Origin: Christiangramia lutea
GTDB lineage: Bacteria; Bacteroidota; Bacteroidia; Flavobacteriales; Flavobacteriaceae
Direction: 5' to 3'
DNA length: 64,000 nucleotides
NCBI RefSeq assembly: GCF_022489035.1
Contig: NZ_JAKVTV010000005.1
Span: forward strand, 186,001 to 250,000
A program made the position numbers and the translations under genes. This document shows, piece after piece, positions 54,208 to 63,552 of the stretch. The notes beneath the pieces were generated by a model, which made no database searches, had not been told where the DNA came from, and saw only the letters and a list, made by a program, of their open reading frames with translations. The stretch's first letter is position 1, and each line of letters begins with the position of its first letter.

Positions 54208-55575
54208 TTAAAGGCTGAACTCATCGTTTAGTGCTGGGATACTAACCTTCCAGTTGAATTTGGTTTCGATCTTCACTCTAAGGGCATCAGCGGCATGTTT
54301 TTCTCCATGTATTAAAAACACATTTTCAGGGATGTTCTTTATTTCACTGCACCAATCGAGAAGTTCTTTTTGATCTGCATGCGCTGAAAGGCTTTCTAAT
54401 TTCACAATTTTCGCCTTCACCGGGAAATACCTGCCTTTCATTTTAATTTCATAAGCTCCTTCCTCAAGTTGTCTTCCCCTGGTACCCTCAGCCTGATAGC
54501 CTGTAAGTAGTAAATGTGTAGATGGATTTCCTATATAATACTTCAGGTAGGTAAGTATTCTGCCCCCGGTAAGCATTCCGCTTCCGGCGATCACGATTCG
54601 GGGTTTGTTCATATCAATGATCTCCCAGGTTCTTTTATAAGATGAAACCAGTTCGAACCTGTTTTTCATAGCTTCAAAATCATGCTGGGGAATTTTATGG
54701 AATTCGGGAAATCTACTGAAAACTTCTGTAGCATCAATGCCCATGGGACTATCTATATATACAGGGATTTCCGGAATGCGATTGGACTTGAATAATTTCC
54801 AGAGAATATATGCCAATAATTGAAGTCTTTCAACAGCGAAGGAAGCGATAAGTAAAATTCCGTGGGTATTTATAATTTCTAGGATCGATTCTGAAAGTAA
54901 GTTATCTACATTTTCCTGAGGATGAAGTCTGTTCCCATAGGTGCTTTCGAGAAATAAATAATCTGCCCAACGTGGTTTTTTAGGAGCTTCCATTAGCAGA
55001 TCTTCATTCCGGCCCAGGTCTCCCGAAAAAACAAGAGTCTTACCTGAAATATTCAGCTCGATTGAGCATGCACCAAGTATATGTCCAGCCTTGAAATACC
55101 TGAATTTTACATCCTGGCCGATCTCGATCCAATCACCCATATGTACCGACTGGAATAACTTTTGGCATTCTTCAACATCTTTTATGGTATACAAGGGTTT
55201 TGCCGGGTGATGCTTGCTGTATTCTTCCTTATTCGCCTGTTCAGCATCTTCTTCCTGGATCTTGGCTGTATCGTTTAAAATAATACTGGCAATGGCCAGG
55301 CTGGGGGAGGTGCCGTAAATTTTGCCCTTAAAGCCCTGTTGAACCAGTTTTGGCAGATATCCTGTATGATCCAGGTGAGCGTGAGTGATTAATACGAGAT
55401 CGATTTTCGGAACATCAATATCGAGATCCTGCCAGTTCAGAAGCCTGAGTTCTTTAAGCCCCTGGAACATTCCGCAATCTATCATTAACCTTATTTGTTC
55501 ATTCTCCAGGTAAAATTTAGAACCCGTTACCGAACCGGCCGCACCTAGAAATTTTATTTTTAAGCCGCTACTCAT
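54208..55575 (-). CDS. Beta-CASP metallo-beta-lactamase-fold RNase/hydrolase
   Basis: This is a 455-residue cytoplasmic enzyme. The MBL metal site HAHLDHTG is at residues 65-72, with a later LVFSGDLGR and the GHILGACS His. The beta-CASP insert is about residues 200-380 with FLESTYGNRLH, SFAVERLQ and IVIAGSGMLTGGRI. SAHADQKEL near residue 405 is motif C of CPSF-like RNases, and VFLIHGE follows. Relatives are RNA-processing nucleases. Its start overlaps the nuclease-like gene upstream by 4 bp, so the two are translated together. Confidence 0.92.
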   Translation of the reverse strand: MSSGLKIKFLGAAGSVTGSKFYLENEQIRLMIDCGMFQGLKELRLLNWQDLDIDVPKIDLVLITHAHLDHTGYLPKLVQQGFKGKIYGTSPSLAIASIILNDTAKIQEEDAEQANKEEYSKHHPAKPLYTIKDVEECQKLFQSVHMGDWIEIGQDVKFRYFKAGHILGACSIELNISGKTLVFSGDLGRNEDLLMEAPKKPRWADYLFLESTYGNRLHPQENVDNLLSESILEIINTHGILLIASFAVERLQLLAYILWKLFKSNRIPEIPVYIDSPMGIDATEVFSRFPEFHKIPQHDFEAMKNRFELVSSYKRTWEIIDMNKPRIVIAGSGMLTGGRILTYLKYYIGNPSTHLLLTGYQAEGTRGRQLEEGAYEIKMKGRYFPVKAKIVKLESLSAHADQKELLDWCSEIKNIPENVFLIHGEKHAADALRVKIETKFNWKVSIPALNDEFSL

Positions 55576-56411
55576 GCATTTAGTTCTTTATTGCAAAGAT
55601 TTCTGAATTCTGATATGATTCTTTTCTTACGCTCTTCTGAAATACCGGAATGATCAAGTAAAAAGTCTTTGTTTAATAACTGACTTCCTAAAATAATTCC
55701 CCGGTCCAGGAGAAATTGCTTTTCAGATGATGATAGAATTGTAGAGGAAGTAACCGGGTAAATCATAGACTTGTCTATAAGTTCCTTAAGACTACCTTCT
55801 TCAGGATAATTCCAGCTTAATAGTTTAAGCCCGGCGCATTTTCCATAGGACAGCGCATCCTGGGTAAATTGAGTATTTGTCACAAGCCAGCCCTTGTCAT
55901 GTTCATGACTTTTTTCAAAAGCGTATATATCATCAAATCTGGATTTAATATATAAAGGGATCTTTACATCACATTTTCGGCCTTCCTCGCTATGAAATTT
56001 GCATTCTATAAGATGTCTTCCAGAATCCCGGGTAGCGATAATATCTATTTCGTGAGTAACACATTTTCCCTGGAGAATAGGGTTTAGAGTAATTTTATAA
56101 CCATTTATCCTAAGTATTTCAGCTACATATTTTTCAAAAGCAAAACCGGATGGACCTAATTCGTAGATAGCTTTTTTTAAGCTATAACGTGAGGCATAGG
56201 CTCCTCTGTAATCCTTTAGCATCGCGTAAGCCCGGTTATATAGCTCCTTGGTTGAGATTCCCTGGTAAAGTTCATCCTTTATTTCATTTATAATTGCAGA
56301 TACGATCGCATCACTGGCACCACTTTTCTTTAAGGATCGTCTTAATTTGGTGAATGAGAACTTTACCTTTTCTCCTGAAGTTTTTATAATATCAGGCCCT
56401 GCATTTGTCAT
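55572..56411 (-). CDS. ATP-cone domain fused to a PD-(D/E)xK (Mrr-like) nuclease
   Basis: This is a 279-residue protein. Residues about 7-90 form an ATP-cone, with KTSGEKVKFSFTKLRRSLKKSGA and GISTKELYNRAYAML. Residues about 91-200 form a restriction-endonuclease-like fold with the catalytic set Asp123 in HEIDIIA and Glu136-x-Lys138 in LIECKFH. Residues 225-279 are a helical tail with a possible DNA-binding helix. An ATP-regulated nuclease is suggested, acting with the overlapping beta-CASP gene. It could be a defence or RNA/DNA quality-control module; the biology is unknown. Confidence 0.88.
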   Translation of the reverse strand: MTNAGPDIIKTSGEKVKFSFTKLRRSLKKSGASDAIVSAIINEIKDELYQGISTKELYNRAYAMLKDYRGAYASRYSLKKAIYELGPSGFAFEKYVAEILRINGYKITLNPILQGKCVTHEIDIIATRDSGRHLIECKFHSEEGRKCDVKIPLYIKSRFDDIYAFEKSHEHDKGWLVTNTQFTQDALSYGKCAGLKLLSWNYPEEGSLKELIDKSMIYPVTSSTILSSSEKQFLLDRGIILGSQLLNKDFLLDHSGISEERKKRIISEFRNLCNKELNA

Positions 56412-60692: not shown

Positions 60693-61679
60693 TTAAAGTA
60701 AAAAGCCGTTTTGTGCTTCCATTGCAGGAGGAATTTCGTCATCATTAAGCATTTCCCGCAAGTCTATTTCTATACCTCTGGCAATAGAGGTTATGGGTAC
60801 GTCGTTGTAAGAACCTTCAAAAGGATTTTCTGAATAATCCCCAATTTTTTCCATCAGGAAAAATACCCAGATGATCAATGCTGAAATGATCGGGCAGATC
60901 CAGAATCTCCAATCATCTGTATTTCGAAAAATATCCAGTAAGCCGAAAGGTACGAATGCACAAAATACAAAGGTTAGCCATAGGGTAGTGGAAGCATACT
61001 GCCTGGGAAAGGGGAAATTCTTGATCCTTTCAGATTTTCCCTGGTCTTCATAAAAACTAACTATAAGTTGATGAAATTCCATATGCCTGAAATCATCAAA
61101 ATATCCAAGATCCTTTAATTCCTGCAGGCGTATGGCCTGCCTTTTCATAATTTGTGTTGCGGTATTGGATTTACCCTGAACTTCAGCCAGTTCATTTTCA
61201 GAAATAAATTTTGAGAGTTCAGAATCGAGCTTTTCGTTATAATCCTCGCATACCTTTGCAGAATATAGTTTTTCAAGCCTCTTATCCAGATGCTCCCAGG
61301 GGCGGCTTAACCTTAATTGATGTCTTAGGGCAGTGATCCAGGCGATGTGCCGGTAGATCATTTCCTTTTTAATGCTTTCCTGGTTATCACCCTGAATGAA
61401 TGAGATACTTGCTGCTGCAAAACTTCTACTGTTATTAACTATACTACCCCAGATCTTCCTGGCTTCCCAGGTTCGATCGTAAGAACTATTATTTTTAAAA
61501 CCAAGGTAAAAGGCCACCGCAATACCTATAATACTTATTGGCTGCCAGGGAACTAAAATGTATCCATCAATTAAAATATAAATCACACAAATGATCGCGG
61601 AATAAAGCAAACCTACTAAGAGTGGCTTTTTAGACCAGTTTAAGGTCATCCAGAAGCCATAATTCCTTTTTACATACAT
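60693..61679 (-). CDS. Bestrophin-family (UPF0187) membrane protein
   Basis: This is a 328-residue protein with four membrane helices (about residues 20-55 paired, and 230-285 paired). It carries the family's aromatic N-terminus MYVKRNYGFWM, LGFKNNSSYDRTWEARKIWG and the C-terminal ENPFEGSYNDVPITSIARGIEIDL. Bestrophins are anion channels in animals and cation channels in some bacteria. ATG 61679 is chosen instead of the TTG three codons upstream. It may be cotranscribed with the WD40 gene. Confidence 0.92.
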   Translation of the reverse strand: MYVKRNYGFWMTLNWSKKPLLVGLLYSAIICVIYILIDGYILVPWQPISIIGIAVAFYLGFKNNSSYDRTWEARKIWGSIVNNSRSFAAASISFIQGDNQESIKKEMIYRHIAWITALRHQLRLSRPWEHLDKRLEKLYSAKVCEDYNEKLDSELSKFISENELAEVQGKSNTATQIMKRQAIRLQELKDLGYFDDFRHMEFHQLIVSFYEDQGKSERIKNFPFPRQYASTTLWLTFVFCAFVPFGLLDIFRNTDDWRFWICPIISALIIWVFFLMEKIGDYSENPFEGSYNDVPITSIARGIEIDLREMLNDDEIPPAMEAQNGFLL

Positions 61680-61843
61680 AATTAACAAAAAGACAAAAAA
61701 TAAAAATAAGGATTTATGTGATTAGAAGACCCGAAATCGTCTAAATACCTTCAAATTATTTAGTGAAATTAGTAATTATAAAAACCTGTAATTCAGTGTT
61801 TTGAGTAAAAAGTTGTAAATTTCGGATATATAAAATTCAGTAG

Positions 61844-63172
61844 ATGCCAGCTGTTAGGAATCCCATTATTACCTATTCCGGTATAGGCCAGATGGTCGTT
61901 TATGACGACCAGAATTCAACTTTGCTGGATTGTTCTATCAGCAACCAGATACCTCATTTGCATGAATGTGGAGGAAATGGTAGATGCTCAACCTGTAGAA
62001 TAAGGGTTCTTGAGGGAGCTTCTAATCTTACCCCCAGAACCCTGAAAGAACAACAGATGGCAGAATTCAGAAGATGGGATCCTTCCATCAGGCTGGCCTG
62101 CCAATGTTATACCAAGGGAGATGTAGAAATAGAAAGGCTGGTTTGGACAAGTTCAGAGATCAATAAGCTTCAGTTGGAAACTGTACCCGATGGAGTTGCT
62201 GAAGAACGTGCTATTGCGATCCTCTTTTGCGATATACGCAACTTTACCAAAATGGCCGTAGAAAATAACACCTTCGATATAGCCCATGTTCTGAACAGGT
62301 TTTATACTATTATTGGGGATCCCATATTGCTGAATAATGGAGTGATTTACCAGTATATTGGAGATGAGATCGTAGGATTATTTGGGATTTCAGGAGGAAC
62401 CCGGGAAAAGAATTGCCGGGACGCGGCGAGAGCTGCCCTGGGAATGTATTACGCCATAGAACAGCTTAATCATATGGAACTTGTAGATTTCGATCTGGAA
62501 ATAAAAACCGGAATTGGGATCAACTTTGGTCGGGCCTATATTGGACACTTGGGGCATCCGAAACATAAACAACTCGCAGTAGTAGGAGATCCTATAAATA
62601 CCGCGAGCCGTATTCAGTCGTTCAATAAAGAGGTAGGGTCGAGAATCCTGATCTCCCATGCCGTTTATAAAAGTGTACCTGCAGATACTTTCCATATCAC
62701 CAATGAATATAAAACCCAGTTCGCAGGGCATGAACATGAAAGCACTTTATATGAATTAAAGGGATTTAAGAAAATGGATATTCAGCTTGAATTACAGCAT
62801 TCTTTAGACTATATCTTTTCCAACAAAGAACGTTTCGCAGATAAATTTTACAAGAAAGTATTCGAAAAGGCTCCTGAAGCCAGGGCACTTTTCCGGAAGA
62901 ATATGAAAGATCAGGGGAGGTTATTGACCCATATGCTTGGTGGAATCGTTTATTCCATGAGCCGTCCAGAGCATTTAGAATCTGGACTTGCGTTTCTTGG
63001 TAAAAGCCACGCACGTTATGGGGTTACCAAGGATCATTATCCTGTGGTTTTAAGTTCCATGATGGAAACCATCGAAGAGGAATTGGGTGAGCAGAGCAGG
63101 CCAGACCTTTTACAAGCCTGGAAACAGGTATTGGTTTATGTGACCGATGAAATGAAAAAGTATACTAAATAA
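61844..63172 (+). CDS. [2Fe-2S] ferredoxin - class III nucleotidyl cyclase - globin fusion
   Basis: This is a 442-residue soluble protein with three domains. Residues about 7-97 are a plant-type ferredoxin domain with C42-x5-C48-x2-C51 and C86. Residues about 120-305 are a class III cyclase with metal-binding Asp130 (FCDIRNF) and Asp174 (YIGDEI), and transition-state Asn252 and Arg256 (INTASR). The two specificity positions are Gln170 and Ala245, instead of Lys and Asp/Thr (adenylyl) or Glu and Cys (guanylyl). Residues about 313-440 are a globin with proximal His389 (GKSHARYGV) and Phe350/Gln357 in the distal region. The domains imply a redox- and gas-regulated cyclase; this is inference. Confidence 0.93.
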   Translation: MPAVRNPIITYSGIGQMVVYDDQNSTLLDCSISNQIPHLHECGGNGRCSTCRIRVLEGASNLTPRTLKEQQMAEFRRWDPSIRLACQCYTKGDVEIERLVWTSSEINKLQLETVPDGVAEERAIAILFCDIRNFTKMAVENNTFDIAHVLNRFYTIIGDPILLNNGVIYQYIGDEIVGLFGISGGTREKNCRDAARAALGMYYAIEQLNHMELVDFDLEIKTGIGINFGRAYIGHLGHPKHKQLAVVGDPINTASRIQSFNKEVGSRILISHAVYKSVPADTFHITNEYKTQFAGHEHESTLYELKGFKKMDIQLELQHSLDYIFSNKERFADKFYKKVFEKAPEARALFRKNMKDQGRLLTHMLGGIVYSMSRPEHLESGLAFLGKSHARYGVTKDHYPVVLSSMMETIEEELGEQSRPDLLQAWKQVLVYVTDEMKKYTK

Positions 63173-63180
63173 GACAGAAT

Positions 63181-63552
63181 TTAGTCTCCTTTTCCGAATG
63201 TGATAATAAAACCTTCCGGGTCTTCAATATCAAAATCTTTCATTTTATAGTCCCTGTCTTCGATATCATTCACAATTTTCACCCCCTCATTTTTGCACTG
63301 CTTATAAACATCATCCACGTCCTTCACAAAGATATAAAGGGCCCTGTGATATTTGGAAGGCATAATGGCATCGGCCCGTTTTGTAAGATGTATACCAACA
63401 CCACCTCTTTTTACTACAGCGTAATATGGAGGTTGGCCCCATTCGAAGGTTTTTTCGAAACCTAATTTTTGAGTGTAGAATTCGATTGATCTTGAAAGGT
63501 CACTTACAGGTAATATCGCTGCTGAATGCGAAAAATTATTTGATTCTGCCAT
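63181..63552 (-). CDS. VOC-family (glyoxalase/bleomycin-resistance-like) protein
   Basis: This is a 123-residue protein with the VOC fold: SAAILPVSDLSRSIEFYTQKLGF opens it, YYAVVKRGGVGIHLTK carries a His ligand, and DFDIEDPEGFIITFG carries the Glu-containing EDPEG end. It may act as a dioxygenase, glyoxalase or binding protein; unresolved. It is convergent with the cyclase gene, with an 8 bp gap. Confidence 0.92.
   Translation of the reverse strand: MAESNNFSHSAAILPVSDLSRSIEFYTQKLGFEKTFEWGQPPYYAVVKRGGVGIHLTKRADAIMPSKYHRALYIFVKDVDDVYKQCKNEGVKIVNDIEDRDYKMKDFDIEDPEGFIITFGKGD

Follow-up and report, generated by a model that had tools for sequence, protein, structure and literature searches.

The window, a stretch of 64,000 nucleotides from Christiangramia lutea, contains a gene at 61844..63172 on the + strand that is open from its ATG to its stop codon and encodes a protein of 442 amino acids. 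All features of this gene described below share that strand. The protein combines an N-terminal Fer2 [2Fe-2S] domain (residues 12-89, 61877..62110, Pfam E 8e-10), a class III cyclase domain (residues 122-305, 62207..62758, Pfam Guanylate_cyc E 5e-18) and a C-terminal globin (residues 334-437, 62843..63154, Pfam Globin E 2e-13). Residues 99-119 (62138..62200) form a linker, predicted with low confidence to contain a short helix. With an intact reading frame and all three domains above their gathering cut-offs, the three-domain fusion proposed in the preliminary description is borne out, and the identical domain order in 24 distinct sequences argues that it is neither a chance joining nor an assembly chimaera. 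An N-terminal membrane anchor is excluded, as the Fer2 domain starts at residue 12 and leaves no space ahead of it. When the protein was searched against NCBIfam no model reached its cut-off; the top match, below threshold, was the NO-inducible flavohaemoprotein.

The fusion gene is flanked by a divergent bestrophin gene (60693-61688, - strand) and a convergent glyoxalase-family gene (63181-63552, - strand). Beyond the genus neither is kept adjacent and no other neighbour is conserved, so operon context was rejected as a clue to function. In four Christiangramia/Gramella loci (L032-L035), but not in the window, an OsmC-like frame recognised by eye lies about 160 bases upstream of the fusion gene and shares its strand. 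Elsewhere in the window, a gene at 55572-56411 (- strand) appears by eye to join an ATP-cone to a restriction-endonuclease-like part, and a metallo-beta-lactamase/beta-CASP-like gene (54208-55575, - strand) overlaps it by four bases.

The cluster ligands, Cys 42, 48, 51 and 86, lie within the Fer2 domain with the spacing C-x5-C-x2-C-x34-C, defining a [2Fe-2S] ferredoxin domain whose cluster is itself predicted. Sequence comparison places the metal-binding Asp130 and Asp174 and the Asn252/Arg256 pair within the cyclase domain, and these residues, together with a PF00211 score of 65.8 bits against a cut-off of 21.9, identify a class III nucleotide cyclase. In the globin domain the haem pocket is formed by Tyr336 (B10), Phe350 (CD1), Gln357 (E7), His389 (F8, the proximal haem ligand, 63008..63010) and Tyr399 (G5); we take these helix-position names to apply from alignment to Hell's Gate globin I. 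The globin fold, the proximal His F8 and Phe CD1 mark this domain as a globin. Translation and alignment reproduced every position given in the preliminary description for the cluster, metal, transition-state and proximal haem residues, and likewise for Gln170 and Ala245.

These residues are strongly conserved. The four cluster Cys, Asp130, Gln170, Asp174, Asn252 and all five haem-pocket residues are invariant in the 24 globin-fused copies, as are L109, Q110 and E112 of the linker; Arg256 is kept in 23/24, and E436, which by eye is a candidate for Glu H23, in only 19/24. Across all 90 distinct ferredoxin-cyclases the four cluster Cys, the metal Asp and the Asn are retained without exception, and the Arg in 88/90. 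Mean pairwise identity among the 24 is similar for the ferredoxin (0.63), cyclase (0.67) and globin (0.62) parts, and comparison of the window gene with two copies from the same genus gave dN values of 0.02-0.11 for the individual segments, whereas dS either exceeded 1 or was saturated, indicating that all three parts are under constraint.

Two AlphaFold2 models of the protein were obtained (mean pLDDT 81.4 and pTM 0.66 for model 1; 84.0 and 0.69 for model 2). Both predict a linker helix with low confidence, at 103-111 or 103-113, and the mean pLDDT of residues 101-120 is 44-60 across the two. At these pTM values, and with low confidence at residues 101-120, the models are not informative about the arrangement of the domains or the distance between cluster and haem. 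The cluster loop (residues 31-50) gave block means of 68 and 50 in model 1, and 81 and 74 in model 2. Structural searches used model 1 and were dominated by cyclase and globin matches, so they bear on these two parts alone. The cyclase part resembles Spirulina CyaC (1wc3_B; Z 22.8, 3.1 A over 187 residues), and the globin part resembles neuroglobin (7ohd_A; Z 21.5, 1.3 A over 131 residues) and O2-bound Hell's Gate globin I (3s1i_A; Z 21.0, 1.8 A over 130 residues). Among solved globins, Hell's Gate globin I and a Roadblock-fused relative of it come closest in sequence, followed by bacterial and flavohaemoglobin-type globins. The haem pocket is thus retained both in its residues (24/24) and in the predicted fold.

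Several known systems share parts of this architecture. Spirulina CyaC and Synechocystis Cya2 share its class III catalytic fold (Z 22.8 and 22.2, respectively), but differ in their sensor domains and base-selecting residues. Flavohaemoglobin and Hell's Gate globin I share the globin fold and pocket; unlike flavohaemoglobin, the window protein has no C-terminal FAD/NAD reductase, and its globin is joined instead to a ferredoxin and a cyclase. The globin-adenylate cyclase of Leishmania has no ferredoxin and carries its globin ahead of the cyclase. This soluble enzyme likewise couples a globin to an adenylate cyclase, although it is eukaryotic whereas the window fusion is bacterial. The Leishmania protein is reported to act as an O2 sensor (PMC5827161). 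Globin-coupled sensors also join a globin to a signalling output, but are defined by an N-terminal globin with a variable C-terminal part (PMC1457004); here the globin occupies residues 334-437 of 442, and is closest to the flavohaemoglobin-type single-domain globins.

The closest parallel is Sinorhizobium meliloti CyaC, which shares the [2Fe-2S] and class III cyclase domains. CyaC is reported to bind two haem b besides its [2Fe-2S] cluster, to produce cAMP and to have an activity that is sensitive to the redox state of the quinones (PMC10463352). Proteins of the CyaC build were recovered within the same ferredoxin-cyclase family, with S. meliloti CyaC itself compared by description. CyaC is membrane-bound through a diheme-b anchor, whereas the 442-residue fusion has the ferredoxin-cyclase core but lacks the anchor, carries a globin at its C-terminus and has Gln-Ala at the base-selecting positions, where the 27 anchored relatives of CyaC build have Lys-Thr. 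The fusion is best filed with the CyaC-type ferredoxin-cyclases, minus the membrane anchor, and its combination with a globin as new. Our literature search, in which subscription papers fell largely outside the scope, returned no paper recognisably describing or characterising a ferredoxin-cyclase-globin protein, and none on the spirochaete ferredoxin-cyclase-peroxidase fusions described below.

After removal of identical cores, we collected 90 distinct ferredoxin-cyclases: 24 full-length globin-fused proteins, all from the Bacteroidota, the phylum of the window, and 66 others. The globin-fused copies form one clade on the core tree (support 100/99), and on these sequences the globin fusion represents one lineage within a wider family of ferredoxin-cyclases whose partner domains appear exchangeable. 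Among the 66, seven spirochaete proteins (L042, L043, L094, L096, L098, L105, L106) carry a C-terminal haem peroxidase (PF00141), each with the distal RxxFH and proximal His motif. Five (L044, L045, L093, L095, L097) are fused to an FAD/NAD reductase; their cyclase lies between the ferredoxin and reductase parts, in an arrangement resembling an NqrF- or MmoC-like electron chain. Twenty-seven have a hydrophobic N-terminal anchor and form one clade (100/100), with four His columns each kept in 26 or 27 of the 27; the label '6TM' that we gave this anchor derives from hydrophobic composition and the conserved His, two of which are missing from L107. The remaining partners are YceI (2/66; L109 and L111), an N-terminal DUF2769 (3/66, one below the cut-off) and N-terminal extensions with no assigned domain (3/66). 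The YceI fusions adjoin the globin clade on the tree with modest support (81/83). Nineteen of the 90 have no sizeable partner, and seven of these (L060, L086, L087, L135, L139-L141) have Asp-Ala at the base-selecting positions, which is also non-canonical. The partner labels require 12 changes on the core tree, including two for peroxidase and three for reductase, so that partners have likely been exchanged on the ferredoxin-cyclase core, with some of the peroxidase and reductase nodes weakly supported.

The globin fusion is uncommon. It is present as a single copy in the C. lutea genome and as full-length copies in 6/23 other genomes of the genus (76-90% identity). Counting the C. lutea genome in each case, at least 12 of 299 genomes of the family, in 10 genera, and at least 3 of 395 genomes of the phylum carry it; these are lower bounds, with up to five candidates scored per genome for the family and up to four for the phylum. 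A ferredoxin-cyclase with no globin was found in two further genomes of the 299. A scan of named genomes added copies in Robertkochia, Saprospiraceae, Lewinella and Cyclobacteriaceae, and two further genome searches scored up to 15 and up to six candidates per genome. The set of 90 leaves aside 13/43 matches of the latter search, the interrupted genes L038 and L103, and a second match in the L037 genome (a 485-amino-acid frame). The first of these interrupted genes (L038:5977-7359), a globin-fused copy in a metagenome-assembled genome, has an in-frame stop that reflects either decay or assembly error. A plasmid search matched 166 records, all below 60% identity and one covering at least 80% of the query; two of the 20 plasmid matches listed are a 572-codon annotated cyclase and a record that carries no annotation. 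On the core tree the copy from Robertkochia (L040), a member of the Flavobacteriaceae, groups with a Cyclobacteriaceae copy (96/84), a placement that suggests horizontal transfer of the fusion.

From its sequence, a redox- or gas-responsive cyclase is the natural reading of this intact three-domain protein: the window gene probably encodes a soluble enzyme whose output, a cyclic nucleotide acting as signal, is controlled by a [2Fe-2S] cluster and a haem globin. Of the soluble redox and O2/NO sensor proposed in the preliminary description, the absence of an anchor and the intact cluster, catalytic and haem residues stand as observed, while the sensing itself we infer. Our preferred model, to which we assign a probability of roughly 55%, is a CyaC-type redox cyclase in which the quinone-sensing anchor has been replaced by a flavohaemoglobin-type globin and the [2Fe-2S] cluster acts as the electron junction. 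The protein would work as a homodimer, as other class III cyclases do. Its C-terminal globin would bind O2 and NO and exchange electrons with the N-terminal cluster, which would serve as a built-in reductant where flavohaemoglobin has its flavin reductase. Cluster redox state would act through the linker helix on the cyclase dimer and so set the rate of cyclic nucleotide synthesis, giving a signal that would weigh O2/NO against the reducing power available. A role for the cluster as a common switch is suggested by the identified partners of the core, most of them haem or flavin redox proteins that retain their cofactor residues, and by the redox-dependent activity of CyaC. YceI and DUF2769 are not plainly electron carriers and, with the partnerless members, are left unexplained by a common switch.

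Both cofactor sites are invariant in the 24 copies, which would equally be expected if, as in the integration model of the preliminary description, the cyclase carried two independent sensors that exchange no electrons, the cluster sensing redox state or being destroyed by oxidants or NO and the globin binding O2/NO. Globins that sense by binding a ligand and are linked to other outputs do form a known class (PMC1457004, PMC3820574). However, this arrangement leaves the recurrence of the core with several other redox proteins unexplained, and the globin here is flavohaemoglobin-like and C-terminal, unlike those of globin-coupled sensors. We therefore regard it as possible but doubtful, and favour the cluster as electron junction.

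The nature of the product has to be considered separately. The two base-selecting residues are Gln170 (62351..62353) and Ala245 (62576..62578), and they match neither canonical adenylyl cyclases (Lys with Asp or Thr) nor canonical guanylyl cyclases (Glu at the first position). The first position is Gln in all 24 globin-fused copies and in 1/66 other ferredoxin-cyclases, while the second varies (Gln-Ala 16, Gln-Ser 5, Gln-Thr 3). Of the 66 others, 53 have Lys-Thr, seven Asp-Ala and two Asn-Thr, while Asp-Thr, Val-Thr, Glu-Thr and Gln-Thr each occur once. Among 23 further class III cyclases from the phylum, nine also have Gln first, with Ala (6), Ser (1), Thr (1) or Val (1) second, in a sample taken from the fetched loci and picked for similarity to the 442-residue protein; by these sequences, Gln-Ala is a recurrent natural pair among the class III cyclases of the phylum. 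The residues are thus non-canonical, as previously described, but Gln at the first position is common in the phylum and the second position drifts, so the unusual product specificity that had been tentatively read from them does not follow, and we rejected any firm reading of the product from these positions.

On present analysis cAMP is the likeliest product, and some cGMP may be formed alongside it. Sister lineages have Lys-Thr, CyaC makes cAMP, and a mycobacterial cyclase with the pair Gln-Asn is an adenylyl cyclase that also shows some guanylyl activity; the replacement of Lys by Gln at 170 weakens this assignment. A product other than cAMP (cGMP, cCMP or cUMP) owing to that replacement would be in keeping with the near-restriction of Gln, among ferredoxin-cyclases, to the globin-fused proteins, and with the Lys-Asp pairs of all three other class III cyclases in the C. 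lutea genome. We consider it unlikely, given the frequency of Gln-first pairs in the phylum and the activity of the mycobacterial enzyme. In addition, although Gln at this position has two origins on the core tree, it arose only once with the globin clade, and as a single event (one independent pair) its association with the globin carries no statistical weight. The genome also encodes six cNMP-binding proteins (PF00027), none of which has the canonical CRP phosphate-binding signature as judged by eye, and on that judgement no cAMP receptor candidate was taken from them.

That the protein is primarily a globin enzyme, a ferredoxin-fed NO dioxygenase or O2 reductase with the cyclase as a secondary read-out of turnover, would suit the invariant Tyr B10, Gln E7, His F8 and Tyr G5, the sub-threshold flavohaemoprotein match and the catalytic residues in the peroxidase domains of the Leptospiraceae relatives, but it is the cyclase that stays constant whichever partner is attached, and the candidate Glu H23 is not fully kept, making this the least probable of the alternatives and one we hold to be very unlikely.

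Returning to the CyaC-type redox cyclase, a broader and more tentative proposal is that the ferredoxin-cyclase core is a portable reporter of electron flow, which bacteria join to the particular redox protein that requires monitoring, be it a globin, a haem peroxidase, a flavin reductase or a quinone-linked anchor. Its cyclase might then respond to the electrons passing through the [2Fe-2S] cluster and not to ligand binding, the globin-fused form might report O2/NO turnover, and Gln170 might mark a shift in nucleotide preference that became fixed on acquisition of the globin; we would give this proposal as a whole only modest odds.

Redox state and O2/NO are usually sensed by different proteins. 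The fusion unites an electron carrier, an enzyme that makes a signal and a haem protein in a single soluble polypeptide of 442 residues, small enough to be purified and studied intact. As the same core is shared by globin, peroxidase, flavin reductase and CyaC-like anchor, comparison among these fusions would directly test the cluster redox state as a common switch. For cyclic nucleotide signalling in marine Bacteroidota, where we name no receptor candidate here, the fusion would supply a defined input.
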